A DNA stretch of 64,000 bases from a virus, in IMG/VR virus record IMGVR_UViG_3300034280_001042, positions 27,972-91,971 of that record. One strand, 5' to 3'. The notes under the pieces are model-generated. The model was not told the origin of the DNA, did no database searches, and worked only from the letters and a program-made list of their open reading frames with translations. The position numbers were made by a program, and so were the translations under genes. Positions 17,521 through 40,538 of the stretch are shown here, in pieces (positions within the stretch are counted from its first letter, which is position 1; each line of letters begins with the position of its first letter).

Positions 17521-18242
17521 TATTAGGAATATCTGGAAGAAAACAGTCCGGTAAAAGTACTACTGGAAATTTTATATACTCTATCTATATGTCTAATCTT
17601 GGCATATCCAATAAAGTATATATCAACGAGTATGGACAAATTATAGTATCTGATTTATTGGGGGATACTAATTATGCTGGAGTATTTGATCCTACCAATC
17701 ATTATGGTAATAACGACTATATTATTTCCCAAGTGTTTGAAAAATTAGCTCCATATATTAAGATATATAATTTTGCAGATGTCTTGAAGAGGGATATTTG
17801 TATGAATATTCTTGGATTAACCTATGATCAATGTTATGGTTCTGATGAAGAAAAAAATGCGCCAACGAACCTTCAATTAGACGGTAAGTGTCTATCAGCC
17901 AGAGATATTTTACAATATATAGGAACCGACGTATTTCGTAAAATTAAACCAGACGTTTGGGTGGAAGCTACGATTACTAAAATAAAGAAAGATAAACCAG
18001 AGTTAGCTATTATTACAGACTGCAGATTTCCAAATGAAGTAGACATAGTTAAAAATAATAATGGTAAAATTCTGAGACTTTCAAGAGATTTGCATCATTC
18101 TGACCACATTAGCGAAACCATCTTAGATCCAGAAAATTATAATTGGACAAATTTTGATTTTGTATTAAATAATGATAATATGTCCATATTAGAACAACTA
18201 ACAGAAACCAAAAATATTTTAGAGGAGATACTAAAATTATAA
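17514..18242 (+). CDS. Deoxynucleoside monophosphate kinase-like protein
   Basis: The 242-residue protein opens with LILGISGRKQSGKSTT, a P-loop at residues 5-17. It also has YNFADVLKRDICMNILGL (about residues 83-100), ARDILQYIGTDVFRKIKPDVWVEA, and ELAIITDCRFPNEVDIVKNNNG. These blocks match phage dNMP kinases of the T4 gp1-like group, which phosphorylate dTMP, dGMP and modified dCMP. It starts seven bases inside the primase gene and ends inside the start region of the next nuclease. It works with the reductase and deaminase in dNTP supply. Confidence 0.82.
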   Translation: MLILGISGRKQSGKSTTGNFIYSIYMSNLGISNKVYINEYGQIIVSDLLGDTNYAGVFDPTNHYGNNDYIISQVFEKLAPYIKIYNFADVLKRDICMNILGLTYDQCYGSDEEKNAPTNLQLDGKCLSARDILQYIGTDVFRKIKPDVWVEATITKIKKDKPELAIITDCRFPNEVDIVKNNNGKILRLSRDLHHSDHISETILDPENYNWTNFDFVLNNDNMSILEQLTETKNILEEILKL

Positions 18243-19276
18243 TCACATACTTTCGAAGTAGTTCATATAATACCCACAGTCTTTGTGAGCAACAATATTT
18301 TATTGAATATGTTCTTGGATGGAGAGGTCCGTCTGGTCAAAAGGCCGATAAAGGAACTATTGTCCATAAGGTTTTAGAAATTTTAGCTGTCATTAAAAAA
18401 GGACAGCAAGACGGTATGACCGAAATAGACGATGATGTAGTTGGCCATATTGATGTGAATAATTATAATCTGGATACTATCACACAAAAAGTATACAAGC
18501 ACTACACAGAGAGATCTCCGCATCACAAGTGGGCACCTAAAGACTATAAGGATTGTCATTCCTGGGTTTATAAGGCAATCGAATTAAATAATGGCATGTT
18601 TGATCCTAGAAATCGTAATATTTTAATGCCAGAACAACATTTTGATTTTGAAATAAAAAAACCATGGTCTAAATACTCTTATAATCTTACAGACGGTTCT
18701 GTATTAGAGGGTAATTTGGCCATGAAAGGTACTATTGATTTAATAACTCTTGTTAATAAAGATACTATCGAGGTAATTGACTGGAAAACAGGTAAAAGAT
18801 TAGACTGGGCAACGGGACAAGAAAAAACCCAAGAAAAGCTTGAGAACGATCCACAACTAAGAATTTACCACTATGCCATTAAACACTTATATCCTGATAT
18901 TAAAAACATTATATTCTCTATCTATTTTATTAATGATGGTGGACCTTTTTCTATTTGTTTTCATGATAGCGATATTGCTGAAACAGAAAATATACTTCGT
19001 AGAAAATTTGATATAATAAAACAAACTACTAAACCTAAACTTAATAAGTCTTGGATGTGTAGTAAACTGTGTCATTTTGGTAAGACTACTTTTGCTAATA
19101 CTAGTATCGAACCTGTTATCGAGTATAGAAATGGTCAGTTGTGCTCAAAGGACACGACCATGACAAAGTGCGAACAAATAAAACACGATCTAGACTTATA
19201 TGGAATCGACGCTACTATAGGGCTATACAAGCACCCGAATCACTCCTTTGGATCATACAAAGCTCCCGGAACATGA
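18236..19276 (+). CDS. PD-(D/E)XK exonuclease, Cas4/AddB/RecB-like, probable ATT start
   Basis: The first ATG (18416) would cut off conserved sequence. Upstream, the frame encodes TYFRSSSYNTHSLCEQQYF and GTIVHKVLE, the classic N-terminus of RecB/Cas4-type nucleases. The only start that fits is ATT at 18236, eight bases after an AGGAG ribosome site (18223-18227); ATA at 18239 is second choice. This gives 346 residues. Catalytic residues are His44, Asp168, Asp182 and Lys184 (EVIDWKTG) and a QLRIYHYAI helix. Cys17 plus Cys275, Cys279 and Cys303 or Cys312 could hold an iron-sulfur cluster as in AddB and Cas4. It ends at the polymerase start (ATGA). Confidence 0.82.
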   Translation: MIITYFRSSSYNTHSLCEQQYFIEYVLGWRGPSGQKADKGTIVHKVLEILAVIKKGQQDGMTEIDDDVVGHIDVNNYNLDTITQKVYKHYTERSPHHKWAPKDYKDCHSWVYKAIELNNGMFDPRNRNILMPEQHFDFEIKKPWSKYSYNLTDGSVLEGNLAMKGTIDLITLVNKDTIEVIDWKTGKRLDWATGQEKTQEKLENDPQLRIYHYAIKHLYPDIKNIIFSIYFINDGGPFSICFHDSDIAETENILRRKFDIIKQTTKPKLNKSWMCSKLCHFGKTTFANTSIEPVIEYRNGQLCSKDTTMTKCEQIKHDLDLYGIDATIGLYKHPNHSFGSYKAPGT

Positions 19277-21138
19277 AACAATACATCCCTTTGCATGTAC
19301 ATTCTCATTATAGTCTTATGGATGGTCTTAGTAAGCCAGCTCAAATAGCAACTAGATGTGCTAAAATTGGAGTTCAATCTTGTGCTATTACTGATCATGG
19401 ATCTATTTCTGGAACAGTACAGTTTTATCAAGCACTTAAGAAACAAAAGATAAAACCAATACTAGGTTGTGAGCTATATATTTCTAAAGACAATAGTTCA
19501 TTAAAAGTCAAAGAAAATAGCAAACTAAGTCACTTTTTAGTTTTGGCTAAAAACTATGCTGGGTGGAAAACCTTGATTAATATTGTTTCAGAATCTAACT
19601 CAGAATCTAACTTTTATCATAAGCCAAGACTAGACTTTAAAACACTATCCAAGCTATTAGATGGTAATATTATAGGATTTTGTGGTCATTTGGGATCCAG
19701 TCTAGCTAATCTAATTCAAGAATCCACAGATTCCATAGAAAAGTCTGGCACAGAATTCATTGCTCAAATGAAAGATATTTTTGGTCAAGACAATTTCTTT
19801 CTAGAAGCACAACTAATGGATAGAGAGTATTCTAAAGAACAAATAGAAATGACAGAGCATATTAGAAGGCTTGGTCAAATAACTAATACTAAAGTAATCT
19901 GTACTCCAGATGCCCATTATTGTGAAAAAGAAGACGCTATTGATCAACGCATATTACTATGTAATAATCTTAAAACAACACTAATTGATGTCAATAAAAA
20001 AATTCTTAACGATGAATCTGTAGCTATGGATTGTTTTTTTAAGTCAGATAATTTCCATATTCTAAGTCCAGAAGAAATGGCAAGTCTACATACAGACGAA
20101 GAAATAGAAAATACTAACTATGTAAATTCATTATGTGAAGAATACGATATTCTACACAAACCTCTTCTTCCAGAATTTAAATGTCCGCCAAACTTTAATC
20201 CCGACGAATATCTAAGAGAACTATGTCGTAAAGGATGGAGAGAAAAAATAGATAAGCAAATAGCTAAAGAAGACCATCAACAGTATGTAGATAGAATCAA
20301 ATTTGAACTAGAAATCTTACAAGGTGCCGGATTATCTAGTTACTTTTTAATTGTGCAAGATATTGTTAATCTCGTTAGATCTAAGGGTTGGTTGCCGGGT
20401 CCGGGTAGAGGTTCTGCTGCTGGATGTTTAGTATCATATCTAATCGGAATCACGTCTATCAATCCTATAAAGTATGATTTGATCTTTGAAAGATTTTATA
20501 ATGCTGGTAGAAACACATCAGACCATATCTCTATGCCAGATATTGATGTTGACGTACCCATTAATAAAAGAGAACAGATTATCTCATATATTAAAAACAA
20601 GTATGGTCACGATAAAGTATCTCAAATGATTACATTTAATACTATGAAGGGTCGAGGAGCCCTAAAAGAAGTATTAAGAGTCTATGGTAATATTAGTTTC
20701 GACGAAATGAACCGTATAACTAAATACATTCCGGATGAAGCTAAAATTGCAGACGAACTACAAGAGATGAAAGAAGATACTGGAGAAGCATCAATTATTC
20801 GATGGGCCTTAGAAAATAATGTTGACAAACTCAAAGAATGGTGCTATATATCTGAAGACAATACACTAGCAGGCCCTCTTGCTAAAAGATTTGAACAAGC
20901 TATACGTTTAGAAGGAACAAAATCTAACCAATCGAAACATGCTGCTGGTGTAGTTATTAGTAGCGAAAATCTAAAACTTGTTTGTCCTATGATATATGAT
21001 TCTAAGAACAAGCAGTCGATTGCTGGTATGGAGATGCAAGATTTAGAAAGCCTTGGCGTGATTAAATTTGATATTCTTGGTATAGCTATGTTGGATAAAA
21101 TTATGACTATAACAGATATCCTTAAAAATGGAGAATAA
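19273..21138 (+). CDS. dnaE: DNA polymerase III alpha subunit, N-terminal part (PHP and palm)
   Basis: The start is the ATG sharing four bases with the previous stop; the frame open upstream is not coding. The 621 residues hold a PHP domain (PLHVHSHYSLMDG, with His8 and His10; AITDHGSISG), then the thumb and palm. GPGRGSAAGCLVSYL is the polymerase glycine motif. MPDIDVD gives Asp423 and Asp425, and IKFDILG gives Asp600, equivalents of the E. coli D401, D403 and D555 catalytic triad. The protein stops 21 residues after Asp600, before the fingers. The rest of the enzyme is encoded at 22010-23635. Neither half should work alone. Confidence 0.93.
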   Translation: MKQYIPLHVHSHYSLMDGLSKPAQIATRCAKIGVQSCAITDHGSISGTVQFYQALKKQKIKPILGCELYISKDNSSLKVKENSKLSHFLVLAKNYAGWKTLINIVSESNSESNFYHKPRLDFKTLSKLLDGNIIGFCGHLGSSLANLIQESTDSIEKSGTEFIAQMKDIFGQDNFFLEAQLMDREYSKEQIEMTEHIRRLGQITNTKVICTPDAHYCEKEDAIDQRILLCNNLKTTLIDVNKKILNDESVAMDCFFKSDNFHILSPEEMASLHTDEEIENTNYVNSLCEEYDILHKPLLPEFKCPPNFNPDEYLRELCRKGWREKIDKQIAKEDHQQYVDRIKFELEILQGAGLSSYFLIVQDIVNLVRSKGWLPGPGRGSAAGCLVSYLIGITSINPIKYDLIFERFYNAGRNTSDHISMPDIDVDVPINKREQIISYIKNKYGHDKVSQMITFNTMKGRGALKEVLRVYGNISFDEMNRITKYIPDEAKIADELQEMKEDTGEASIIRWALENNVDKLKEWCYISEDNTLAGPLAKRFEQAIRLEGTKSNQSKHAAGVVISSENLKLVCPMIYDSKNKQSIAGMEMQDLESLGVIKFDILGIAMLDKIMTITDILKNGE

Positions 21139-21140
21139 TT

Positions 21141-21326
21141 ATGGAGAAACAGTTCAGTCAATTAGCAGTAGGTGATAAGTTTATGGTAAATGGCGTACAA
21201 TATGTTAAAGCAGTAGAAGTTAAAGTTAGTTGTTGCAAGTCGATCAACGCAACTGCTTCGGCTAACAGTAACGAGAAGACTTTTTTCCCAGGAAATACCC
21301 TAGTAACAGTGGAAACCAATGGCTAA
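21141..21326 (+). CDS. Small protein inside the split polymerase locus
   Basis: The 61-residue product (FSQLAVGDKFMVNGVQYVKA, then VSCCKSINATA, then FFPGNTLVTVE) looks like a small all-beta protein. Similar 'VGDKF..NG..Y.K' microproteins are scattered through phage genomes without a known job. It starts three bases after the polymerase N-part and overlaps the exonuclease start by eight bases. It lacks intein splicing motifs, so it is not a splicing element. Association with the polymerase is inferred only from position. Confidence 0.7.
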   Translation: MEKQFSQLAVGDKFMVNGVQYVKAVEVKVSCCKSINATASANSNEKTFFPGNTLVTVETNG

Positions 21327-22017
21327 TTTTCAAAAATTTTGTGTGTTCGATTTAGAGACAGATGGTTCTAATCCAGATGTCTGTAGTCCAGTACAAATTG
21401 CTGCTGTGATTATAGATCCTTTTAGATTAGAAATAGTGAAAGATTCAGAGTTTAATATCACACTAAAACCAGCAGCTTTGGAAGAAAAAGAAGAATACGC
21501 CTATGAAGATAGCGATGTTCTTGATTTTCATGCCAAAGTAAGGGGGTGCGCTAAAGACAAGATTCTATCAGATTGGCATTCTTATCAGAAACAAGAGCAT
21601 GGATGGAAGATGTTTGTATCTTACCTAGATATGTATCATACAAGGTCCGATAGAAAATCTTGCTTTAGTGCCCCTATTGCTGCTGGATATAATATTAACA
21701 GATTCGACTTAAAAATCATAGATAGATTAAGTCAGAAATATAAGAACATCAATAAGGAAGGAAAATCCAGTCTTTTTTATCCAAGAGACGTTGTGGATTT
21801 AATGAATGTTGTATTTTATTGGTTCGAAGGTAATAACGAACTCAAAAATTACACACTAGACCATGTAAGAGATTACTTTGGTTTAAGCAAAGAAGGTTCA
21901 CATGATGCTCTTAAAGATGTTAAAGACACAGCAGAGCTTTTGATTAGGTTTATGAGACTATTTAGGAACACATCATCTAAGGTAAAATTTAAAGGATCGT
22001 GTACAGCAAATGGCTGA
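21319..22017 (+). CDS. dnaQ: DnaQ-like 3'-5' proofreading exonuclease
   Basis: The 232-residue protein has all DEDDh residues: Asp11 and Glu13 in CVFDLETDG (ExoI), Asp130 in YNINRFDLKIID (ExoII), and His195 with Asp200 in SHDALKDVKDTAEL (ExoIII). The family removes mispaired 3' ends for DNA polymerase III. It starts eight bases before the end of the small gene and stops eight bases into the C-terminal polymerase gene. In this position it is co-translated with both polymerase parts and is a likely subunit of the same complex. Confidence 0.9.
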   Translation: MANFQKFCVFDLETDGSNPDVCSPVQIAAVIIDPFRLEIVKDSEFNITLKPAALEEKEEYAYEDSDVLDFHAKVRGCAKDKILSDWHSYQKQEHGWKMFVSYLDMYHTRSDRKSCFSAPIAAGYNINRFDLKIIDRLSQKYKNINKEGKSSLFYPRDVVDLMNVVFYWFEGNNELKNYTLDHVRDYFGLSKEGSHDALKDVKDTAELLIRFMRLFRNTSSKVKFKGSCTANG

Positions 22018-23635
22018 GTATTATACTTTTGATTGCGGTTGTAAATTTCCTGTTATTTCTCAGTCTGGTGAATTCCCTAAAATTGATTTTACTCCAAATG
22101 TAGAGAATCTAAATTTAGATTGCCAAAGAACATGGGAACTGATATCAGAAGGAAATACAAAAGGTTGTTTTCAGCTAGAGTCTAGGTTAGGCCAAACGAT
22201 GGCCCGTAAGCTTAAACCAGAAAATATGGAACAGCTATCTGGTCTGATCAGTATTCTTAGACCAGGATGTTTGGAAGCCTATAGAGATGGCAAAAGCGTA
22301 TCTAATCACTATATAGATAAAAAGAATGGATCTGAGTCAATTGACTTTTTCCATCCTGCTCTTGAAGAATCTTTAAAGAGTACCTACTCAGAAATGGTCT
22401 ACCAAGAACAGGCTATGCAAATCTCACAAAAAATTGCGGGATTTGATCTTCAAGAAGCCGATATGTTAAGAAAAGCTATTGGGAAAAAGAAACCAGAAGA
22501 AATGGCTAAGGTTAAAAAGAAATTCATTGAGGGAGCAAAAAAGGTTAAAATTGTTGACGAATCTGAAGCAGAAGAGATTTTCGGTTGGATAGAAAAATCT
22601 CAGAGATATAGTTTTAATAAGTCCCACGCGATTTCATATGCTATTAATGCTTATATGTCAGCATATGCGAAAGCACACTTCCCAAGAATCTTTTTTGCAT
22701 CATATCTAAGATTTGCTAAAGACAAAATAGATCCTCAACAGGAAATAAAAGAGCTGGTTAGAAATGCAACCGAAATGGATATTATTGTTTCTATTCCAGA
22801 TATACGATATCTAAACGAATTCTTTATTCTCAAGAATAAGATTATTTATTTTGGATTAACAGATATCAAAGGGGTTGGTCAATCTGTCTTTAAGAAGATA
22901 TTAAGCTTAACAAAAGAAATAGACCTCAAAACCGCAACATGGCTACAAATCCTAACTCAACTACTGCTCAATATTAATTCAACAGCAAGTAAAGCATTGA
23001 TCTCTGCTGGGGCTTTGGACTATTTAAAAAAGAATAGAACAGAGATGCTATTTGAATATGATATATGCTCTTCTTTAACTAAAAAAGAATTACAGCTTTT
23101 AATGGAAATAATATCAGAAAGCAATCCCAAGAACCTCAAAGAAGCATTAGGTTCTATGTTGTTAATCAAAAAAGTGACTAAAAATAGGCAACCTAATATT
23201 CAAGCTTTAATTCAGTCTATAGATAAACCTCCATATTCTTTGCTAGATAAAATTGAGTGGTTATCTGACTCTGAGAATTCTTTACTTGGCACAGCAATAA
23301 CCTGTTCCAAGCTGGATACTTATGATACTAGTATGTCAAACTGTAACTGTAAAACATTTAAAACTACTTTTACCAAAGAAAATATTGTTTTAGCTGCCGA
23401 AATTAGTAATATCAATATTACCAAAACCAAAAACGGTAAAAATCCAGGACAAGAAATGGCCTTTCTCACAATTGAAGATCAGTACGGAGTATTGGATTCT
23501 GTTGTCTTTTTTCCAGAACAATTAGCTAAATATAAACATCATTTATTTGTTGAGAATATTCTCGTTTTTGTAGGAAATAAAAGCAAGACCAAAGACGGTC
23601 TTATAGTAGAAAAATGTTTCATCCCAGTCACTTGA
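22010..23635 (+). CDS. dnaE: DNA polymerase III alpha subunit, C-terminal part (fingers, OB)
   Basis: The 541 residues continue the polymerase. NTKGCFQLESRLGQ, ILRPGCLEAYRDG, MVYQEQAMQISQKIAGF, DMLRKAIGKKKPEEMAK and YSFNKSHAISYAINAYM (about residue 200) are the finger motifs of bacterial DnaE. A helix-hairpin-helix-like region follows (FGLTDIKGVGQSVFKKI), then a C-terminal OB fold (about residues 455-541, MAFLTIEDQYGVLDSVVFFPE). Added to the N-part this makes 1162 residues, close to the 1160 of E. coli DnaE. The first 38 residues, with YTFDCGCKFPV, are an extra N-terminal segment. The stop overlaps the -35 of the ssb promoter. Confidence 0.93.
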   Translation: MAEYYTFDCGCKFPVISQSGEFPKIDFTPNVENLNLDCQRTWELISEGNTKGCFQLESRLGQTMARKLKPENMEQLSGLISILRPGCLEAYRDGKSVSNHYIDKKNGSESIDFFHPALEESLKSTYSEMVYQEQAMQISQKIAGFDLQEADMLRKAIGKKKPEEMAKVKKKFIEGAKKVKIVDESEAEEIFGWIEKSQRYSFNKSHAISYAINAYMSAYAKAHFPRIFFASYLRFAKDKIDPQQEIKELVRNATEMDIIVSIPDIRYLNEFFILKNKIIYFGLTDIKGVGQSVFKKILSLTKEIDLKTATWLQILTQLLLNINSTASKALISAGALDYLKKNRTEMLFEYDICSSLTKKELQLLMEIISESNPKNLKEALGSMLLIKKVTKNRQPNIQALIQSIDKPPYSLLDKIEWLSDSENSLLGTAITCSKLDTYDTSMSNCNCKTFKTTFTKENIVLAAEISNINITKTKNGKNPGQEMAFLTIEDQYGVLDSVVFFPEQLAKYKHHLFVENILVFVGNKSKTKDGLIVEKCFIPVT

Positions 23636-23659
23636 CACCAACCCGACTCCAAATATAAT
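23632..23659 (+). promoter_or_regulatory. Consensus sigma-70 promoter for ssb
   Basis: TTGACA at 23632-23637 and TATAAT at 23654-23659 are both perfect hexamers, with 16 bases between. The -35 overlaps the stop of the polymerase gene. A start near 23666 would give a leader of about 45 bases, ending in AGGAG at 23697-23701, nine bases before the ssb ATG. It is the best promoter in the window and would use the host housekeeping polymerase. Confidence 0.85.
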
Positions 23660-23669
23660 ACTCATGGCG

Positions 23670-23691
23670 TTTGAGTTTTTTTGAGTTTAAA
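23670..23691 (+). repeat. Direct repeat TTTGAGTTT in the ssb leader
   Basis: TTTGAGTTT occurs at 23670-23678 and again at 23680-23688, ten bases apart, one helical turn. It runs into the palindrome GTTTAAAC (23684-23691). The pair lies just past the expected transcription start. It could be an operator or an mRNA site for autoregulation by SSB, but two short T-rich copies may be chance. Confidence 0.35.
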
Positions 23692-23710
23692 CTTTTAGGA
23701 GAATATTCAT

Positions 23711-24085
23711 ATGAATATTACTTTGCTTCGAGGGAATTTAGCTAGAGATCCAGAATTGCGTATTGTTAACACTTCAGGTAAGCAAACATCTGTGGTCAAC
23801 TTTACTGTTGCAGTATCTAGAGAGTATGTGAAGGCTAGCGGAGATAAGGATAAGATTACTTCCTTTATTAACTGTGAAGCCTGGGATACCGGGGCTGAGA
23901 TGATTGCAGAATCCTTTAAGAAGGGTGATCTAGTAATGATTGAGGGATCTTTACGAAATGACTCGTGGGAAAAAGACGGTGTGAAACACAGCAGCTTGAA
24001 GGTTAGAGTAAATAACTTTTCAAAGATCGCTAAGCTATCACGACCAAGTAGTAAAACAGAAAATGCTGAGTCTGTAGCTTTCTGA
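23711..24085 (+). CDS. ssb: Single-stranded DNA-binding protein
   Basis: The 124-residue protein has the bacterial SSB OB fold: MNITLLRGNLARDPELRIV, FTVAVSREYVK, TSFINCEAWDTGAEMIAESFKKGDLVMIEGSLRNDSW, and a closing strand. Behind the OB fold only about 20 residues remain, ending in ENAESVAF; the long Gly-rich linker of cellular SSB and its DDDIPF tip are absent, though the final acidic-aromatic character is partly kept. It coats single-stranded DNA for replication and RecA-type recombination. It is its own transcription unit, with promoter and terminator on either side. Confidence 0.93.
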   Translation: MNITLLRGNLARDPELRIVNTSGKQTSVVNFTVAVSREYVKASGDKDKITSFINCEAWDTGAEMIAESFKKGDLVMIEGSLRNDSWEKDGVKHSSLKVRVNNFSKIAKLSRPSSKTENAESVAF

Positions 24086-24115
24086 ACATAATTCATCCAG
24101 GAAAAAGCAGAATAC

Positions 24116-24139
24116 GGGGGCGAAAGCCCCCTTATTTTG
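24116..24139 (+). terminator. Intrinsic terminator after ssb
   Basis: A perfect GGGGGC/GCCCCC stem (24116-24121 and 24126-24131) with a GAAA tetraloop is followed by TTATTTTG. The GC-rich stem stands out sharply from the AT-rich surroundings. It lies 30 bases after the ssb stop and 11 bases before the next ATG, so the following glycosyltransferase genes need read-through or their own promoter. Confidence 0.92.
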
Positions 24140-24149
24140 TATCTATAAT

Positions 24150-25814
24150 ATGTCAAACAAACTTAAAATCTTAATGTGTTCCGAAGCTAGTTTTTTAAAT
24201 TCTGGATTTGGAACGTATACCAAAGAACTACTCTCTCGTCTTCATAAAACCAACAAATATGTTATTGCAGAATTTGCTTCTTATGGTTTTGTCAATGACC
24301 CAAGAGACAAAGACATTGAGTGGACCTACTACGCAAACGCTGTAAAAGACACGGACCCTAGACATAAAGAATATACGTCTAGAGGAGATAACCAATTTGG
24401 TCGATGGAGATTTGAGAAAGTTCTATTAGATTTTAAGCCAGATGTAGTTATTGATATTAGAGACTATTGGATGACAGCATACCAAGAAACGTCGCCTTTG
24501 CGTAAGTATTTTCATTGGATTCTGATGCCAACAGTGGATTCTGAACCACAACAAGAGGACTGGATAGATACCTTCTTATCGGCAGATGCTATTTTTACAT
24601 ATTCTGATTGGGGTGCAGAAGTTCTTAAAAAACAAAGCTCCAACAAGATTAAATATATTGATACTGTTTCTCCAGGAGTTGATTTAAATACATTTAAGAT
24701 CAAAGACAGAACAGCTATAAAAAAAGCAGCAGGATTCAAAGATAATGACATTATCATTGGTTCTGTCATGAGAAATCAAAAAAGGAAACTCTTTCCAGAA
24801 CTGCTAACATCTTTTCGCTCTGTCTTAGATAATCTTGAAAATACTAATCCAGAACTTGGCTCAAGACTATTTTTATATCTACATACCAGCTATCCAGATA
24901 TGGGATGGGATATTCCCGAACTCTTAAAGGATACTAGATTAGCTAACAAGGTTTTCTTTTCGTATGTATGCAAAAGTTGCAAAAATACTAGCTGTAATGT
25001 TTATAGTGGTGTTCAAACAGTTTGTCAAAAATGTTTGCACAAAACATGCGGTATGCCATCTGTTACAGATGGATTTAGCTCATCAAATTTAGCAGACGTA
25101 TATAATCTGTTCGATCTTTACGTTCAATATTCCATATGTGAGGGATTTGGGATGCCTCAAGTGGAGGCCGGGGCCTGTGGAGTACCCGTTGCAACGGTTG
25201 ATTATAGTGCTATGTGCGACGTTATTAAAAAGCTCGATGCCTTCCCAATCAGGGTTAAAACCAAGTTCAAGGAACTCGAAACCAAAGCATTAAGAGTATA
25301 TCCAGATAATGATCACTTGGCCAGTATTATCTTAGATTATATACAGTTACCAGAAGATATTAGAAACAATAAAAGACAAACAATTAGAAAATTGACAGAA
25401 AAATATTATGATTGGGATCAAGTAGCCGAAACATGGGAAAAGTATCTGGATAGCTTAGACCAATCAGGGTTCAGATCAAATTGGGACTCTAAAGCCCAGA
25501 CGATTGGCCCAATACAAAAATCTCAAAATATTAATCGTCACGATCATTTCGAAACACTATTATCAACCTGTAGCTATCCTTTCAACAAACCGGACATGAT
25601 AGCATCTGCAAAAATTCTAGGTATGCTACGAGATGCTGATTATGGATTTGCTCAAGGCGGACCAACTCAAATTATTCCTTTTGGATATAACAACATAGAA
25701 GACTATTTACAAATCTTGGTTAATAATCAAAACCATGCTGAGAAGGTCAAAGAAGACAAAGTTTCTTTTGACGAAGATTTTATCCTATACGCAAAGCTGA
25801 AGAATCAAAAATGA
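24150..25814 (+). CDS. GT-B glycosyltransferase (GT4-like) with a zinc-binding insert
   Basis: The 554-residue protein begins with LKILMCSEASFLNSGFGTYTKELLSRL, the donor-side glycine loop of GT4 enzymes. It carries the E-x7-E motif as EGFGMPQVE (Glu331, Glu339) in the C-terminal domain, followed by AGACGVPVATVDYSAM. Between the domains lies an insert rich in CxxC-type pairs (about residues 274-300: CKSC, CQKC and a last Cys), probably a zinc site, which is unusual in this family. The last 110 residues are an extra region. It is the first and best-preserved gene of the second glycan island. Confidence 0.85.
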   Translation: MSNKLKILMCSEASFLNSGFGTYTKELLSRLHKTNKYVIAEFASYGFVNDPRDKDIEWTYYANAVKDTDPRHKEYTSRGDNQFGRWRFEKVLLDFKPDVVIDIRDYWMTAYQETSPLRKYFHWILMPTVDSEPQQEDWIDTFLSADAIFTYSDWGAEVLKKQSSNKIKYIDTVSPGVDLNTFKIKDRTAIKKAAGFKDNDIIIGSVMRNQKRKLFPELLTSFRSVLDNLENTNPELGSRLFLYLHTSYPDMGWDIPELLKDTRLANKVFFSYVCKSCKNTSCNVYSGVQTVCQKCLHKTCGMPSVTDGFSSSNLADVYNLFDLYVQYSICEGFGMPQVEAGACGVPVATVDYSAMCDVIKKLDAFPIRVKTKFKELETKALRVYPDNDHLASIILDYIQLPEDIRNNKRQTIRKLTEKYYDWDQVAETWEKYLDSLDQSGFRSNWDSKAQTIGPIQKSQNINRHDHFETLLSTCSYPFNKPDMIASAKILGMLRDADYGFAQGGPTQIIPFGYNNIEDYLQILVNNQNHAEKVKEDKVSFDEDFILYAKLKNQK

Positions 25815-27672: not shown

Positions 27673-28082
27673 AACGTAATATTCATTTGTGTAATATTCA
27701 CAGTAAACAAGTATCAGATGCTGAACCAGTAGACATATCTACTATTTCTAGTGTTGTTAATTTGTCTGTCGATACTATTTTTTGCGATTCTTTAGAGTCT
27801 ATAGCAGCAGAAGATTTGTCTAAAAAATTTGTAGAAATATTAAACAAAATCCGACCTAATGGATATCTGATATTAAATATCTTAGACATAAAAAAACTTT
27901 GCTCAGAGTACTTACAAAATACTATTTCAAACCAAGTTTTCTTATCACTAATCAAAGACAAAAATAATTTTATTAGTATAGATAATATATATTCTTTAAT
28001 AGACACTAAACATTTTCAAATTATGAAAATCGATACTGATCAAAATACTATTTCTGTAGTTATTCAAAGGACAAAAATATGA
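27669..28082 (+). CDS. Small unknown protein, methyltransferase-remnant-like
   Basis: The 137-residue product has ILNKIRPNGYLILNILDIKKLC (about residues 56-77), which resembles the motif after the acidic loop in class I methyltransferases (L-PGG-L-L). It lacks a glycine-rich motif I, so it may be a shrunken or non-catalytic relative. ATGA overlaps join it to both neighbours in the glycan chain. Confidence 0.5.
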   Translation: MKRNIHLCNIHSKQVSDAEPVDISTISSVVNLSVDTIFCDSLESIAAEDLSKKFVEILNKIRPNGYLILNILDIKKLCSEYLQNTISNQVFLSLIKDKNNFISIDNIYSLIDTKHFQIMKIDTDQNTISVVIQRTKI

Positions 28083-32521: not shown

Positions 32522-32926
32522 TTAGATCTCTTTTTTCCACTTTCCAACTGGACACTCTTGATCCGCCCAAGCCAATTTACTAGCAAACATTTTGTTACGA
32601 AATAAGGGACACCCACATTTTGTACATGTGTCTTCTTTAAAGAATTCACAAGTCATACAGATGTCATGTCTTTTAATAATCTGTTCTTCTGTACAGGTAG
32701 GCATTCCTGTTTTTAAATGATTAATTGCAGCACCAGCAAAGTTCTTAATCTTTTGGGAAAAAGAAATTTTATCCTCTAATGATCTTTGCAAAGATTTTTT
32801 ACACGGAAACATCGGTGGAGAATCGATAGGATCCTGAACAGTTATTTTTATTCCACAGTTTTTGCATTCGTAGTGAATATTATCAAGTGTTATAAACTCA
32901 CAAAAGATATTATATGTCGTATTCAT
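32522..32926 (-). CDS. Small Cys-rich protein at the end of the tail operon
   Basis: The 134-residue product has YECKNCGIKITV near the N-terminus and CMTCEFFKEDTCTKCGCPL plus QECPVGKW at the C-terminus. That is a treble-clef-like zinc site seen in many small phage proteins of unknown function. The middle is basic and helical (KSLQRSLEDKISFSQKIKNF). It starts inside the 3' end of the 2542-residue gene (17-base overlap), so it is the last gene of the - strand operon. Confidence 0.72.
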   Translation of the reverse strand: MNTTYNIFCEFITLDNIHYECKNCGIKITVQDPIDSPPMFPCKKSLQRSLEDKISFSQKIKNFAGAAINHLKTGMPTCTEEQIIKRHDICMTCEFFKEDTCTKCGCPLFRNKMFASKLAWADQECPVGKWKKEI

Positions 32927-35900
32927 ATGGAATAAGTTCCCATGGAGACAAACTCTTTAACTCATCTGTTTTATTCTCTATGCCATCAACGCTACCAAAA
33001 AAGGCTCTATACAACATTTCATTTTGTAACTTTAAAAAATCTGGAGTTGTGCTATATTGTAGTTGATTATTTTGGTCTTTCTGCAAACACTGCCATACAT
33101 AAAAATAATTATTTAAACTTTGACCAATATTTAGTTCCGGTGGAGACTCAAAACTGGAGTTAGGTCTAAACTCAGTTCCAGCGCTACCATATTTGTATAC
33201 TGTAGTATAATAATCTATGGATCTAACTTGTCTAGGAACTTTTCGGAATCTAACCTTAAGTGTATTTTGATCGTCTAAATTAAAAATATTGTAAACTCTA
33301 GTTAGGGTATTCTGTCTAGAACCAAATGGACCAGCTAATCCCTTACTGACATCCGCAGACCCATCGTTTTTATAGCAACTAGTCGGAATTGGATTGTTGT
33401 CAGTTTTAATATGACAAGGAACGGCTAAAAGATAGGTTTCTGTTGCTCTTACAACAAGGTCTTGAGTACCGGCGGCGAAATCGTCATTAACAAAAAAAGT
33501 TCGTTCAACAATATGATTAGTTTTCCATTTGATATTAGGATATTTAGTTTCATATTCTTGTTTTTGTTTGTCAATAGTAACTTGTGGAATTTCATATGTA
33601 ATCCTCATATCACTTCCAAACAAACCTCCAGGAATAGATCCCGCTCCGAGACTAACAGCCCCACCAGATACAGGTATTTGACCACCAGCTAACATATTGC
33701 CAGGACAAATATTGTTGTCTAGTGGTCCACTAGCAGCATTAGCGTATCCACATACATATTGAGTTTTGATTAAAATTTTAGGACAGTCTTCTTCAGCAAT
33801 ACTACAAGATTGTTTTGGGTCGATATTTATCCAATAATAATTATCAGATATGTCTTCATATGTAATAGATAAAGAACCTTCTCCTACAGTATTATTACTG
33901 TTTTGATTAGCTGGTGTTACCGATACTCTAGTATATGGTAAAATACTCGAATTGGATGTTTTGGCTGTATAAGTAACATTTCCGTCTGCATCTGTTGTTC
34001 TAGTCGTTTGATTTTGTAATAGTCTTATGAGATCATTTCTTTCTTTATATCTATTAAGTATTGCTTGTTTAGTTAATCTTTTATAACAAGAAGATCTATT
34101 ACTAGAATTTGATTTTTGATAGCACGATAGTGGGTCTTCTTCTAAAGAATTATAGTGATTTTCTAAGTCAGAAATACTACCCACATTGATAATATTTGAA
34201 GTTCGAGCAGGTTTACCTATCTCGCTGGTTATATCTATATTATTAGACTCTAAGGAATTAAGCCTAGTCACCACAGTAGTAATAGTCTCTTGATCTAAAT
34301 GGTTGGTTGGTGCTGCTTGTATGTAGTCTTCATCAAAAATTATTTCTCCATATCTAACGCTAGATAGTTCTTCGGATGCTAAATGAGGACATTTAATAAA
34401 AATAATTTGCATAGCAGTGTCAGGAATATCTGCTACAGTATTCGTTAACGCTTCAAGCAGAGTTTCGTATTGTGCATCTGTCATATTAGGATGACGAATA
34501 AATTTGAATCCCCCATTCAAGAAAATATTCTTAATATCTTTGAGAGAGCAGGCATAACCTAAAGCTCCATTATTATTTTCTATAGGAGTAACTGTGGTTG
34601 TAGTCTGTCCATCTTCAGTTAATGATTCTGTAAATATTGTCATATTATTAAATTTAAATCTATCATTAATATGATTATTAAATAGTTCATATATTGTTTT
34701 AAGTTGATTCTTTTGTAGTTTATAGGTTAAAATTTCTTTGTTTTTGAATGGAGAACCATTACCATATGCTCCTAGTCCAGTAGTAGAAAATTGAGTGTCT
34801 GGTACTGTCTGATGTATTTGTTCTTTTTCCAAACCCCAAACATTGATTGGTTGTTCTGTAATCTTGGTTGTTTGTGGTTTAAATACTACAATTGTGTCAC
34901 TATTACTAACGTGACTAATAAGATTATTGGTATTAATAGAAGCTGACAACTCTAATACCGTGTAGTATCTATTGTCTTTGATAATGAGTCCCTTTTGATT
35001 AATAATAACAGAGACTGGGTCGGTACTATCTCTTGTAGATTCATTATATATATTAACCGTATCTGAAACACCAAATACGTAAAATGGTATTTTACCCTCT
35101 AAGAGAACAAGATTATTCAGAGGGGAGTTGAAGATATTTGTTTTATAGCTTAATATATTATTGTGTGATAAAATTTTATTAGAACTAACTAAGCGCCCAG
35201 GCTCTAACGGTAAATCGCTGTCACGAGAACCTGATTTGGTAATTCTATAAATAGTATCGTTATCTTTAATATAAAACCCACCAAGGTAGTCCTGTGCCAA
35301 AGGAACTGTACAGGTTAATTGAAACAATGTCCCATCTGCTAGACTGCTTATTTTATCTATGTCTTTGATTTTGCTCGCAAGATAAGATACATTTGACTCT
35401 GTACCTTCTTGAGCATTAATTAAATCTAGTTCTCCTAAAGATATGTTAATAAACATATTATTATCTAATAATTGACCAACGTCTGTAACGGATTCCATAG
35501 CAAATTCTGATAGTCCCGGCATAGTTCCTCTGCCTAACTTAACAAATTTGTATTTATTGTGTTCAAGAACTGGAGTATTTTTATACTTAAAGACAGAAGC
35601 TTCTAATTTATACCAAATACCACCATCTTTACTAACGTTTAATAGTATCTTTTCTGGAGAACCAAAAGGGAAATTACTATATCTTGGAGCATAGGCGAAT
35701 CTTGCTTTTTCTGTGATATTATTATATAATCTGTTGCTAGCAAAATACTCCATAATCTGATTAAAACCGCTGGAGTAACTGGCTCCAAAACCCATAGTTG
35801 CTCCAATCAGACCTCCTCCTCCTGATGCAAAACCGGATGTTGTGCCTACCATAATGTTAAGTATAGCATCTGTCGGGAAAGTAGGAGGCCTAATCATAGA

Positions 35901-38900
35901 TGCTTTGGGTCTGTTGTCGGGGTCGGCAAAATCACAGAGAGAAGAGTCGTTAATATACACATATGGAGCATTTAGATTAACATTCGGTAATAGATGTTTT
36001 TTATTGCTCATATCCGCAATAAAACCATAGCCTGGATATCTTGGTTCTTTACCGTATTCAATAAGAGCTAAAGGATCAGTATTTCCATAAGCGTCTAAAT
36101 CCCCACCCTTAGAAGCAACATATTTACGAGTTTTATCGGTATGTAATATAATTTCCCAAGAACAAAGAGAATTAAAAATTTCTGCTGATCTTTGTTTAAC
36201 ATCTGGAGTGTCGTATCCTGTTAATAAGCTATTATTATTAACCATATCATACAATTTCATTTCATCATAGTCGTCTAAAACCATAATGTTTAATGTAAAA
36301 ACAGTTGATGAATCATAAGTTGGATGTATAGGACAGGATTTATCGTCTTCAGCCGGAGGATTAATAAATAATGATCTATTTTTGAATTTAGCAAAGTGAT
36401 TGTTTACCACATTCAGTTGGTTATTTCTGATAATATTTTGATACAAAACAGAGGAAATGTCTGAATATCCTGTAGACGCTATCGTTGGTTGAATTTCATA
36501 ATTATCATTAATAATATTTTGTTGTAATCCAATACCTTCGGAAGTCAGAGAATTTTGGTCAAAAGGCACATTGTATTTTGAAGCATGGTCTGAGAATTTT
36601 ATAGACATATTAAACTTATTATTTTGTATGTGTTCTTTATTGAGCAAATACAGTCTTAAGGGCTCAACCCATGTGTAAGTAGAATTCATATCTATTAGAT
36701 CAGATAAATACTCTGCTACTCCAGTATTTGGTATAGTTGTTTTAACAGATTCTCCGCAGTGGCTATAAAAATTAGGCTTACCATATAATCCATTAGGAAA
36801 TTTTTTATCTATAAAACCATCTGCTCTAGTAATAGGACATTGTGCTTTTCCAGATTTTGATTGAGCTAACTGTTTCCTAGATTCTGCTGAAGGAGATACA
36901 TCTAACCAGATGACTAAGTTTTTAGTGTTAACATAGTTTAAGAAGTTTAATTTAACTTCTAAATCCTGAATATTTAATGTATTTATTCTGGGGTTTCTTA
37001 AACCTTTATCGCTACCAATCGGATTTGACGGACCAGTTACAGCAAAACTATATGTATATGTAGCTGAATTGATGTTTGTTAAGGACTCTCCTGGTTGACA
37101 AGATGCTTTATTTGCTTCAAATCCAAATTCATCAACAACTTCAGAATTAGTAGAAATACCAAGCTCTGCTGTTTTGGGTAATCCTCCATTTAAATATCTA
37201 TATCCATGATGAAGGTATGTGGATCCTCCAGAATATTGGTCTGCTAACTCTTTATTGATTTGATTGTTTTTTTCATGTTCTTTGAGATCTTCTGGATCTA
37301 CAGGTACGCAATTACTTTTGAAAGGATCCCAATGTATAGGAGAAGCAATATTAAGCTTAATAGAGCTCTTGTAAACATTTGGTATATTCTCAAAATTGCT
37401 ATTATAAGTTGATTTAAGATTAATTAATCCAGGACCAGTAAAGCTAAAAGATTCTCTGGCTCCAGGATTAAATTTCAACACACTGCTTAAGTTAGCATGT
37501 GTATTAAATTCTTCAGAAGGAGCCTGAATCCAACCACTAGACGGATGAAAAACTCCTTTATGAAATTCAATATAGCTATCTGTTTGAGTAGTAGCTTGTT
37601 GATAACATAATTTAATACTATTATTAATAGGCTGTCCTGGAATACTATCTGCTTTATAGTCTAATTTATACCCTGTTACAACAGGCAATATGTTGGGTAC
37701 TGCAGCAACTCCTGCTGGAAAAAATTCTGCAGCATTTAATGGAGGTCTGACATGGTCAGGAATTACTACTCCGATGTCATTAATTATTCCTCGACTATAT
37801 CCTCCGTAAGTCTTAATCGGAGGAGCATTTAGCGTTGATATTGGAGGATATCCAAAATTTACGAACTCGGTTGTATTTGAAATCTGATTAGTTTGACTAT
37901 TCCAGGTTATTTTTTTGAGAGTAATACCATCTGGAATTTTTTCTCCGCGTAAAACAACAGCTCTTCTTTCTAGCGGTCTAGTACCAGGAATAATAGCAGA
38001 AGTAGAATAGGAGTTCGGATAAAAAAAACTTAAACACTGTCCACAGTCTGTATTGTTTCTAGTATTTTTGAGTACTACTTTGAATAATTTAATAGTAGTA
38101 TTGTTCGTATTGTATGCTATGTTTAATTGGCTATTTTTGTTTCCAACTCCCGTGTCTGGTACACTAGATCCAAAAGAAAATTTGGCAGTACCTTCTAAGG
38201 TAAATTCTCCATTAATAGTAGTATACTTATACAAAGTCTTCATAGGCCAAAACAAGCCGGATTTATGTACTGCTATCTCAGATAAAGACGAACAAATAAT
38301 TTTTAAATGATCACTAGTTATTAGAATGGGTTGGGCTTCTATTGTATTAATTGGTCCTGGGCTTAATCCTTCTACAGGAATATTGGGGTTTTCAGGATAA
38401 CAAAACTGGCCGATACCTGCATTATATATTGTTCCTTCTGGGGCATATTTTCCGTAACTGGGTATAGTACTTAATTTCCTGTCAGGATCTTTTTGTGTAC
38501 CGTTTACTACATAAAAGGTTTTCTTTTTGACAAAAGTACCATTAGGAGTAGATACTGTACATTGAATTTTATATTCTCCAGTATCTCGGAGATAAACAAA
38601 TGGATCCAGTTGTGTAGAAGAATCATATCTGGCTTGTTCGAAAAGCAGGTTTGGTTTTCCGCTTAACGTTTCAGCAGTTTTATTGGAATCGCTAAATTTT
38701 AAACAGGGTCCACCTATTTGTTCCCAATATGCAGATACTTTAGATTCTAAAAAAGAAGAGATATTGATCGCAGCAAACTTTATTCTGGTATCGTTAATTG
38801 ATCCGTCGTTGTTAGTTATTGCTATTTTTTCAGTTTCAAAAATGTAATTATTTGCAACATATCTGTTTATAGTAACTCCATCTTGATTGTCTTGTCTATA

Positions 38901-40538
38901 CTTTTTCTTAACATTTGTTGTTTCTGCCATTACGATATTAATTGTAAAATCTTGAAAAACTTCTTTACCAATATCCGATAATGGCAATACTTTAATTTCG
39001 TTAGATTTATTTAAAGATATTTGGCTCTCTGTGTCGCTAATAATGCTTTTAATTTTAATGTCACTTAGTTCTATAGTAGTATTATTAAATACAGTGGTTG
39101 GTCTAGGTTTAGGAGACATAGCAGGATATATAGCGGTTCCAACCAAAGACTTGTCACAAAAATGTTTAGCTATCTGAGAAATATAAACACTATCTCCATT
39201 TGGTAATAGGTTTTTATATCTTAGAAAAGTATCTCCAGAAAGTTTTAACGTAGCACCATATTTGTTTATTAGTTTTTTCAATAGCTGACTTTTCGTATAT
39301 ATTATATTGTCTGTAGTAGTTTTGTATGAAATAGGATTTCCTAAATTGACAGCTTTGCCCGTATTGTCTGTATATGTTTGTAAAAATTTATGGATATTAA
39401 CAACTACATTCTTTAAGTCTAAAATTTCGTTAGTAATAGTATTTGCTCCATTACCATTAATATAATTATCTATATATGTTCTGATCTCTGGCATATTTAA
39501 CGAATTAATACCAAAATCAGTCATAAGAGGACTGGTACTTAATATGAAAGATATTTTTTTTACTAATCTTGCTTTTTTAAGATTCATTCCTCTGTCTAGT
39601 CTACGTATTTCATTTGCTGTGACAATATTATATATCTGAGTATATGTGCTATATAAAGCAGGAGAAAGATAAGATTTAGAAATTATATTTTTTGATAATT
39701 GTTCTTGCTGTCTGTCTTGTTCATTTTCGAAATATGAAAAAAAATCACCATTACTAACCCACAACAATGTTTTGTCTGGACCTCCGAATATAGAATTAGA
39801 AGACGAACTAATGTCTGTAGAAGATAAATAGAAAACAGGGTTTGATCCCAAATCAGATACTTTAACTAATGATACTGAATCGAAGGAAATATCTAACAAA
39901 TCTGTGATGGTGGTGGAAGATTTGATAAGCTCATTATCTTTATCTACTCGATATAAAGTATTATTATCTAATTTAATTAACGGAATATTATTTAATGCTC
40001 CGCTATTTGTTTGCAGTCTTGCTCCAATAGGAAACTTGTCAATCGAACCAGCGTTTCCTAAAAAATCAACAGAAGTATTAGGTATAGTTTTGACCCAACC
40101 AAGTAGTCCATACTGTAAAGAATAAGGAAAATAAACCTGATTGAGTATCCAGTCAACAGTCATCAAAGAGGAGTCTGTAGTAAGCCAATTTTGAAATTGG
40201 GGTTTGAATGTTATGAAGTCTTCGATACCTAGTCTAGCACTGGTAAGTGCTGGATTTGCATTCTTTATAGCTCCATCAGCCGACAGCTGTTTAGTAGAAA
40301 TGAAAGTATCATCTGTAATAAATATGGGATACCAGACATTGGCAATAGAGGATTGGCCCAAGCTAGTATTCTTAAGAGAAACTAAATCAGCATCTCTCAT
40401 TGCAACTCTAGCAATTTGTCCATCGACATATTTAATATACGGTCCAGAACTATCCTCTTCAATAGAATGTCCTATTAAATCGTCTATCAAAAACTTATCA
40501 AAGATTTCACAATTGTCTACAGTATTAATTAATGTCAT
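32910..40538 (-). CDS. Giant virion structural protein, probable tail tip or baseplate part (2542 residues)
   Basis: At 2542 residues this is the largest gene in the window. It has no enzyme motif I can see. The sequence is rich in Asn, Ser, Thr, Ile and Tyr and in short beta strands, as in fibrous or baseplate proteins. About residue 600 there is a PKD-like domain (AYWEQIGGPCLKFSD, then DTGEYKIQCTVSTPNGTF). Gly-rich patches occur near residue 1570 (GFASGGGGLIGATMGFG) and toward the C-terminus. It starts within the stop of the 1991-residue gene (ATGA) and is probably assembled with it. Confidence 0.72.
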   Translation of the reverse strand: MTLINTVDNCEIFDKFLIDDLIGHSIEEDSSGPYIKYVDGQIARVAMRDADLVSLKNTSLGQSSIANVWYPIFITDDTFISTKQLSADGAIKNANPALTSARLGIEDFITFKPQFQNWLTTDSSLMTVDWILNQVYFPYSLQYGLLGWVKTIPNTSVDFLGNAGSIDKFPIGARLQTNSGALNNIPLIKLDNNTLYRVDKDNELIKSSTTITDLLDISFDSVSLVKVSDLGSNPVFYLSSTDISSSSNSIFGGPDKTLLWVSNGDFFSYFENEQDRQQEQLSKNIISKSYLSPALYSTYTQIYNIVTANEIRRLDRGMNLKKARLVKKISFILSTSPLMTDFGINSLNMPEIRTYIDNYINGNGANTITNEILDLKNVVVNIHKFLQTYTDNTGKAVNLGNPISYKTTTDNIIYTKSQLLKKLINKYGATLKLSGDTFLRYKNLLPNGDSVYISQIAKHFCDKSLVGTAIYPAMSPKPRPTTVFNNTTIELSDIKIKSIISDTESQISLNKSNEIKVLPLSDIGKEVFQDFTINIVMAETTNVKKKYRQDNQDGVTINRYVANNYIFETEKIAITNNDGSINDTRIKFAAINISSFLESKVSAYWEQIGGPCLKFSDSNKTAETLSGKPNLLFEQARYDSSTQLDPFVYLRDTGEYKIQCTVSTPNGTFVKKKTFYVVNGTQKDPDRKLSTIPSYGKYAPEGTIYNAGIGQFCYPENPNIPVEGLSPGPINTIEAQPILITSDHLKIICSSLSEIAVHKSGLFWPMKTLYKYTTINGEFTLEGTAKFSFGSSVPDTGVGNKNSQLNIAYNTNNTTIKLFKVVLKNTRNNTDCGQCLSFFYPNSYSTSAIIPGTRPLERRAVVLRGEKIPDGITLKKITWNSQTNQISNTTEFVNFGYPPISTLNAPPIKTYGGYSRGIINDIGVVIPDHVRPPLNAAEFFPAGVAAVPNILPVVTGYKLDYKADSIPGQPINNSIKLCYQQATTQTDSYIEFHKGVFHPSSGWIQAPSEEFNTHANLSSVLKFNPGARESFSFTGPGLINLKSTYNSNFENIPNVYKSSIKLNIASPIHWDPFKSNCVPVDPEDLKEHEKNNQINKELADQYSGGSTYLHHGYRYLNGGLPKTAELGISTNSEVVDEFGFEANKASCQPGESLTNINSATYTYSFAVTGPSNPIGSDKGLRNPRINTLNIQDLEVKLNFLNYVNTKNLVIWLDVSPSAESRKQLAQSKSGKAQCPITRADGFIDKKFPNGLYGKPNFYSHCGESVKTTIPNTGVAEYLSDLIDMNSTYTWVEPLRLYLLNKEHIQNNKFNMSIKFSDHASKYNVPFDQNSLTSEGIGLQQNIINDNYEIQPTIASTGYSDISSVLYQNIIRNNQLNVVNNHFAKFKNRSLFINPPAEDDKSCPIHPTYDSSTVFTLNIMVLDDYDEMKLYDMVNNNSLLTGYDTPDVKQRSAEIFNSLCSWEIILHTDKTRKYVASKGGDLDAYGNTDPLALIEYGKEPRYPGYGFIADMSNKKHLLPNVNLNAPYVYINDSSLCDFADPDNRPKASMIRPPTFPTDAILNIMVGTTSGFASGGGGLIGATMGFGASYSSGFNQIMEYFASNRLYNNITEKARFAYAPRYSNFPFGSPEKILLNVSKDGGIWYKLEASVFKYKNTPVLEHNKYKFVKLGRGTMPGLSEFAMESVTDVGQLLDNNMFINISLGELDLINAQEGTESNVSYLASKIKDIDKISSLADGTLFQLTCTVPLAQDYLGGFYIKDNDTIYRITKSGSRDSDLPLEPGRLVSSNKILSHNNILSYKTNIFNSPLNNLVLLEGKIPFYVFGVSDTVNIYNESTRDSTDPVSVIINQKGLIIKDNRYYTVLELSASINTNNLISHVSNSDTIVVFKPQTTKITEQPINVWGLEKEQIHQTVPDTQFSTTGLGAYGNGSPFKNKEILTYKLQKNQLKTIYELFNNHINDRFKFNNMTIFTESLTEDGQTTTTVTPIENNNGALGYACSLKDIKNIFLNGGFKFIRHPNMTDAQYETLLEALTNTVADIPDTAMQIIFIKCPHLASEELSSVRYGEIIFDEDYIQAAPTNHLDQETITTVVTRLNSLESNNIDITSEIGKPARTSNIINVGSISDLENHYNSLEEDPLSCYQKSNSSNRSSCYKRLTKQAILNRYKERNDLIRLLQNQTTRTTDADGNVTYTAKTSNSSILPYTRVSVTPANQNSNNTVGEGSLSITYEDISDNYYWINIDPKQSCSIAEEDCPKILIKTQYVCGYANAASGPLDNNICPGNMLAGGQIPVSGGAVSLGAGSIPGGLFGSDMRITYEIPQVTIDKQKQEYETKYPNIKWKTNHIVERTFFVNDDFAAGTQDLVVRATETYLLAVPCHIKTDNNPIPTSCYKNDGSADVSKGLAGPFGSRQNTLTRVYNIFNLDDQNTLKVRFRKVPRQVRSIDYYTTVYKYGSAGTEFRPNSSFESPPELNIGQSLNNYFYVWQCLQKDQNNQLQYSTTPDFLKLQNEMLYRAFFGSVDGIENKTDELKSLSPWELIPYEYDI

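Follow-up and report, generated by a model that had tools for sequence, protein, structure and literature searches.

A DNA polymerase III alpha divided into two adjacent genes around an exonuclease gene in a clade of phages

Essential phage enzymes are occasionally encoded by fractured genes whose products are not spliced. The gp43A and gp43B proteins of phage 25 co-purify with polymerase activity, and the split NrdA of Aeh1 is fully functional (PMC2988022); by analogy, these cases provide a strong precedent for non-covalent assembly. In group 2.2 jumbo phages, a minimal split DNA polymerase III (Pol III) alpha has its catalytic core distributed over distinct N and C proteins (Iyer et al. 2021, PMC7824862), and database records of Bacillus phage vB_BauM_KLEB27-3 and Rossellomorea phage phiT1 contain C-family polymerases cut in two. 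Split Pol III alpha in phages is therefore already known. Here, we describe a distinct arrangement in a 64,000-nucleotide stretch of viral DNA (hereafter, the window), which covers positions 27,972–91,971 of the 91,971-base IMG/VR record IMGVR_UViG_3300034280_001042. On its + strand, the N-half of Pol III alpha (N; 621 residues, 19273–21138) and its C-half (C; 541 residues, 22010–23635) flank the genes for a small beta-barrel protein (S61; 61 residues, 21141–21326) and a DEDDh (DnaQ-like) 3'-5' exonuclease (EXO; 232 residues, 21319–22017). With a probability of roughly three in four, we consider that these genes specify a complete, working two-polypeptide C-family polymerase with EXO and S61, which was split once, most likely by a homing endonuclease.

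Like the genes for gp43A/gp43B in the T4-like Aeromonas phages 25 and 44RR and for Aeh1 NrdA/mobE, the locus encodes an essential phage enzyme in two open reading frames (ORFs) without a splicing element, the hallmark of fractured genes of the Aeh1 nrdA and phage 25 gene 43 type. However, those examples concern a B-family polymerase or a ribonucleotide reductase (RNR) in single phages, with a homing endonuclease or spacer in the gap. KLEB27-3 (gp166, HNH gp165, gp164) has a two-ORF C-family polymerase broken near the palm–finger junction with no intein seen, but it lies outside the window's clade, has an HNH endonuclease and neither exonuclease nor S61 in its gap, and is broken about 30 residues later, its C-chain beginning at window C residue ~62. 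In phiT1 (gp20, 49-residue gp19, gp18), the C-family polymerase is cut at the same loop and a small ORF lies between; however, this ORF is unrelated, the gap holds no exonuclease, and the C-chain starts directly with finger sequence, without the cysteine element described below. The phiT1 sequence occupies a separate branch, and its split was apparently independent of that in the window's clade. The jumbo-phage version is minimal, lacks other Pol III domains, has its genes far apart and stands alongside a B-family polymerase, whereas the window's enzyme is full-domain, adjacent and the sole polymerase seen. In PolC, the exonuclease domain lies inside the PHP domain of one chain, unlike the separate EXO ORF; identity with PolC was rejected, with PolC profiles scoring far below DnaE profiles. 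What is new is that a full-domain sole polymerase is fixed as two chains throughout a clade, that its gap accommodates an exonuclease of the proofreading type plus a small protein, and that a cysteine element specific to the clade stands at the new end. No description of adjacent N, exonuclease and C genes was found in the literature covered, which did not include two key papers by Kazlauskas and Venclovas.

Pfam placed PHP and DNA_pol3_alpha in N, finger, HHH_6 and OB in C, and RNase_T in EXO, and gave no match for S61; PF07733, PF17657 and PF00929 each matched once in the whole 91,971-base record. Both halves belong to one phage polymerase family, phrog_405, N on positions 41–615 and C on 622–1053 (PHROGs). 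The three catalytic palm aspartates (D423 and D425 in PDIDVD, D600 in IKFD) are conserved in N, and PHP, thumb, fingers, HhH and OB follow in order across the two chains, as is characteristic of C-family polymerases. These results bear out an initial sequence-only reading, which had recognized a polymerase in two genes with a DnaQ exonuclease between them and had assigned PHP, thumb, palm and the three aspartates to the first part and fingers and OB to the second. Because all PHP metal-ligand positions of N (H8, H10, D17, H42, E67, H87, H139, D213 and H215) are filled as in M. tuberculosis DnaE1, to which it was aligned, this domain may be an active nuclease. Structurally, the modelled C-half (predicted local distance difference test score, pLDDT, 84.7) matches the Pol III alpha of Taq and of M. 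tuberculosis.

On the NCBI profile PRK05673 (1146 positions), N covers 5–575 and C covers 583–1052, which leaves about 8 profile positions unaccounted for at the break. Approximately 94 C-terminal positions, corresponding to the tau-binding region of E. coli DnaE, are absent from the C chain; in the structure alignment, too, the last match to E. coli DnaE lies at about 1054 and the tau-binding C-terminal domain is not present. The sequence-only reading had judged nothing major to be missing, given a summed length of 1162 residues against 1160 in E. coli DnaE. This judgement fails, and the similar lengths are a coincidence, since C has about 31 extra residues at its N-terminus while the C-terminal positions are lacking. 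The cut had also been placed 21 residues past the last catalytic aspartate and inside the palm. The distance is correct, as the N chain ends 21 residues past D600, but the location is not: because in solved structures C residue 32 corresponds to residue 587 of E. coli DnaE and residue 646 of Taq, and N runs on past D600 to this extent, the break, as judged from these alignments, lies where the palm helix connects to the fingers, not in the palm core.

EXO carries the full DEDDh set (D11, E13, D130, H195 and D200), and its motifs FDLETDG at 10, NINRFD at 125 and HDALKD at 195 are all conserved; the D-x-E, D and H-x4-D signatures of a full exonuclease, as had been claimed for the gap, are thus all present. 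A short conserved KxKFKxSF motif closes its C-terminus. S61, found in all complete relatives, has two adjacent cysteines (C31 and C32) that are invariant among them. Its model is a small five-strand barrel (pLDDT 91.9) similar in fold only to uncharacterised small phage proteins, and its only family match is a weak one in PHROGs (phrog_2183, E 0.008). The genes of the unit had been described as all overlapping, which applies to two junctions: the S61 stop and EXO start share 8 nucleotides (ATGGCTAA, 21319–21326, + strand; -8 in 45/55 representatives), as do the EXO stop and C start (ATGGCTGA, 22010–22017, + strand; -8 in 24/55). N and S61, however, are separated by a 2-nucleotide gap. Overlaps of this kind are a usual sign of translational coupling and, with the operon order, support co-production rather than mark a contact site; the earlier suggestion that the exonuclease sits beside the palm is a conjecture. 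In three relatives (L038, L039 and L048), the EXO frame has no ATG, GTG or TTG near the conserved start, and a non-standard start (e.g., ATT) or another device seems to be needed.

We propose that translational coupling within one operon leads to co-production of all four proteins. The N chain would supply PHP, thumb and palm, the C chain would supply fingers, HhH and OB, and the two would assemble without a peptide bond, with S61 as a small accessory subunit. From its type and fixed position, EXO is likely the proofreader of this polymerase. Alternatively, EXO and S61 could be operon passengers, the two-chain polymerase working without them and any proofreading being carried out by the intact PHP site. 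The filled metal-ligand positions mean that PHP could proofread, and contact between the polymerase and EXO is only predicted. Nevertheless, both genes are present in every complete locus with conserved 8-nucleotide overlaps, EXO retains its conserved KxKFKxSF motif, and the usual DnaE proofreaders are DnaQ-type exonucleases; we therefore consider the passenger explanation unlikely.

Rejoining of the halves was considered at the protein and RNA levels. No ORF in the window matched an intein family, although the same profile search detects a genuine split intein in the relative L200. The first 37 residues of the C chain contain no intein C-terminal motif, and N has no Hint-like tail in the stretch that follows D600. 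The absence of intein motifs at the break, previously noted by eye, is thus upheld with a positive control. Post-translational ligation by a split intein, as in cyanobacterial DnaE, is suggested by the presence of split inteins in the same gene of relatives: the first N piece of L200 ends in an intein N-terminal region (TIGR01445, above cut-off) at GPGRG/C, and the next polymerase piece opens with the typical C-intein ending VHN/S. Cyanobacterial DnaE is likewise encoded in two genes, but its intein halves ligate the product, and none occurs at the window's break. The residue preceding the invariant C38 of the C chain varies among 11 types (E, D, S, A, G, Q, N, F, Y, T and L). Furthermore, the cyanobacterial break lies at the FNKSH motif, later than the palm–finger break, and this motif is intact within the window's C chain. 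Ligation at this break is accordingly very improbable.

Joining through an intron, a chain of frameshifts or a ribosomal bypass over the gap is equally improbable, even though the N gene of relatives carries an apparent bypass element elsewhere. The gap (~870 nucleotides) is occupied by two conserved genes, and no Rfam intron was found in 18000–24500. Junction spacings among relatives vary, with all frames seen, so there is no conserved frame relation between N and C, and a frameshift fusion was ruled out on this basis. Given no intein, no intron, no conserved frame relation and no intact dnaE (see below), the two chains would have to assemble without a peptide bond, as the sequence-only reading had expected.

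Pattern scans of IMG/VR returned 462 relatives of C and 219 of N, and a distant member had 240 hits there; these sets overlap. Complete N, EXO and C were present in 228 fetched loci (111 distinct C stretches), and every one of these (228/228) has the order N-S61-EXO-C on one strand; in L081 and L217, where tblastn missed S61, an ORF with its SCC motif is present. N and C formed one open frame in 0/228 complete loci, and 56/56 C representatives (<85% identity) share the arrangement. Because the same order is kept in all complete loci, the split is neither chance nor an assembly error, and the earlier idea of a fixed polymerase–exonuclease unit holds as far as the genes are concerned. In a tree that also contained unsplit sequences from phages and bacteria, and where distant rows were placed uncertainly owing to long branches, the split clade was monophyletic (support 100/100), with a stem length of 2.88 changes per column. 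This single, long-stemmed group points to one old split in the clade ancestor. Three metagenome-assembled contigs (Alphaproteobacteria, Flavobacteriales and Chitinophagia) indicated no clear host.

The split enzyme also appears to be the only polymerase of these phages. The window's record and 18 related records of 118–244 kb (maximum 243,821 bases), which may be incomplete, were surveyed; each has one finger domain and one palm domain, the palm being in two pieces in one record. Neither a beta clamp nor a polymerase of family A or B was detected by Pfam in these 19 records. An intact dnaE elsewhere in the genome, which would have contradicted the sequence-only reading, was found neither in the window's record nor in the 18 larger related records. 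The lack of a phage clamp by Pfam and of the tau-binding domain could suggest a polymerase that is in decay, or a remnant with a regulatory role, in a phage that replicates with the host enzyme. This is highly improbable, as the catalytic residues of both halves are invariant across the deep clade, no other polymerase was found in genomes of up to 244 kb, and the window encodes its own DnaB, primase, single-stranded DNA-binding protein (SSB), RNR-like protein and deoxynucleoside monophosphate (dNMP) kinase (Pfam, PHROGs).

Regarding its origin, the split would have occurred once, in the clade ancestor, most likely when a homing endonuclease gene invaded a surface loop between palm and fingers; the gap is occupied today by the S61 and EXO genes. 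An endonuclease gene lies exactly between N and S61 in L073/L074, L200 (4428–5111; HNH by PHROGs) and L205, and with the insertion in KLEB27-3, these insertions at or near the break show this route in use. No homing endonuclease is present at the break in the window. Fission of another kind, such as insertion of the exonuclease gene itself, is possible but doubtful; it would accord with the gap of most members, which contains EXO and S61 without an endonuclease, whereas the insertions just listed speak for the endonuclease route.

The new N-terminal end of the C chain would have gained a cysteine-rich knuckle in the course of the split, which may stabilise the join. This element (residues 1–38; 22010–22123, + strand) comprises a beta hairpin with C9-G-C11, followed by C38, and all three cysteines are invariant across representatives. 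Among unsplit phage and bacterial sequences, none of the readable linkers has the 31-residue element, which is probably a metal-binding or structural knuckle that arose with the split. Its similarity to the zinc motif of homing endonucleases, of which it might have been a remnant, is only that of a look-alike. Several points nonetheless weigh against the reading as a whole. The invariant cysteines number three, and a metal site would need a fourth ligand. EXO has no tblastn match in isolated phages, so its partnership with the polymerase rests on neighbourhood. Moreover, in the few relatives with an endonuclease gene at the break, the polymerase gene may have been split before this gene arrived.

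The N gene of relatives is broken at further sites. A split intein at GPGRG/C interrupts it in L200 (1315–4394) and L226 (2068–5128), where a free-standing, nuclease-like ORF (phrog_33911/945) separates the intein halves, and the same break point occurs in L187, L204 and L228. It is also broken just before the catalytic PDIDVD in L051–L057, L010 and L238. In L051 (4126–7119), a LAGLIDADG ORF occupies the PDIDVD gap and the downstream piece has an unrelated head of ~90 residues; the polymerase there would, by its ORFs, comprise three chains. In addition, the PD-(D/E)XK exonuclease gene located upstream in that operon contains an intein-like insert with a LAGLIDADG domain (L051: 2141–4129). With the L200 and L226 intein and the PDIDVD fractures, the N gene thus emerges as a repeated target, and the palm–finger break as the one fixed in all. 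Among isolated phages, Bacillus phage Jayan (L335) has an annotated dnaE in two ORFs, broken at the catalytic PDIDTD, and its relative PS1 (L334) has an intact gene.

An additional interruption was found in 48 distinct N sequences, in which the gene is broken after 13–15 codons; the break falls within the PHP motif, precisely where HVHS gives way to HYSLLDG (or, in some sequences, MFSLLDG). Carriers include L059, L078, L173, L175, L191, L212, L226, L276 and L280; the window's allele is without the insert. The serine codon, TCT (30) or TCC (18), is followed directly by TAA (27) or TAG (21), never TGA. Insert lengths of 8 (3 sequences), 9 (9), 10 (16), 11 (19) and 12 (1) nucleotides span all three frames, the codon preceding resumption is TCT, TCA, TCC, ACT, GCT or GCC, and the remainder of the gene is open where checked. 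The site forms a hairpin, GTCCATTC..GGATGGAC, whose inner stem changes in step (AGTGA/TCACT, GCGA/TCGC, ACGA/TCGT, GAGA/TCTC), and the mean folding energy is -18.2 kcal/mol for 38 distinct hairpins versus -3.8 for 31 insert-free alleles. Pairing holds in 94.8% of the cells of a 26-sequence alignment versus 21–54% when slid; two-sided changes do not appear in this count, owing to misalignment of slid inner stems. In a second stem, ATGGACRTG at the start codon pairs with CAYGTCCAT: 99.1% of cells were paired, 9 cells had changed on both sides and 0/500 shuffles reached as high a value, although the search pattern accounts for part of the invariance. GTCCAT belongs to both stems, which are mutually exclusive.

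On the C tree, the insert has a scattered distribution (15 carriers requiring 13 changes; mean after shuffling 13.3). Of the insert alleles, 10/52 have an HNH gene immediately upstream of N, compared with 0/78 insert-free alleles (Fisher p = 6e-5). In several carriers, which are long records, PF07733 matches only once, so these have no spare copy of N. Readthrough or a single frameshift cannot account for all three frames, and in many alleles a downstream restart would lack a good in-frame start. In T4 gene 60, a 5' stem-loop forms behind the bypassing ribosome (PMC11194080), and bypassing has been linked to homing endonucleases (PMC5009743, PMC2988022). The insert resembles that system in its take-off codon beside a stop in a hairpin, its 5' stem-loop and its homing-endonuclease link. 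Judged by these likenesses, programmed ribosome bypassing of the T4 gene 60 kind, apparently carried as a mobile element, fits best.

Around the polymerase, the PD-(D/E)XK exonuclease gene (18416–19276, + strand) lies directly upstream of N and the SSB gene (23711–24085, + strand) directly downstream of C, both probably in the same operon. A strong GC hairpin followed by a T-rich run lies 3' of the SSB gene (24101–24144, + strand) and likely represents the operon end. Elsewhere in the window, two ORFs of 2542 and 1991 residues (32910–40538 and 40535–46510, - strand) and several of their neighbours have no PHROG match; this is unusual, and they are probably a structural module. A 44-nucleotide hairpin of -20.4 kcal/mol was also noted within an ORF of this AT-rich genome (9985–10028).

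These observations can be combined, tentatively and at slightly less than even confidence, into a picture of an obligate multi-chain replicase, in which N and C are joined with the aid of the cysteine knuckle and EXO and S61 are core subunits. In relatives, homing elements would have interrupted N anew, with repair either through ligation by a split intein at GPGRG/C or through programmed ribosome bypassing of the stop-bearing hairpin in the PHP HxHS motif, so that one essential gene would be repaired at three levels. To our knowledge, T4 gene 60 and a yeast mitochondrion are the main cases of bypass recoding described to date; if bypassing is at work here, the inserts would constitute a large, naturally varied family of recoding, in a clade that is a hot spot of gene-breaking elements. 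The locus offers a natural two-chain Pol III alpha for testing communication between palm and fingers, and possibly a small replicase with its own proofreader. Thus, a cellular-type replicative polymerase can stay permanently divided at the palm–finger junction as the sole replicase seen in a large phage clade.

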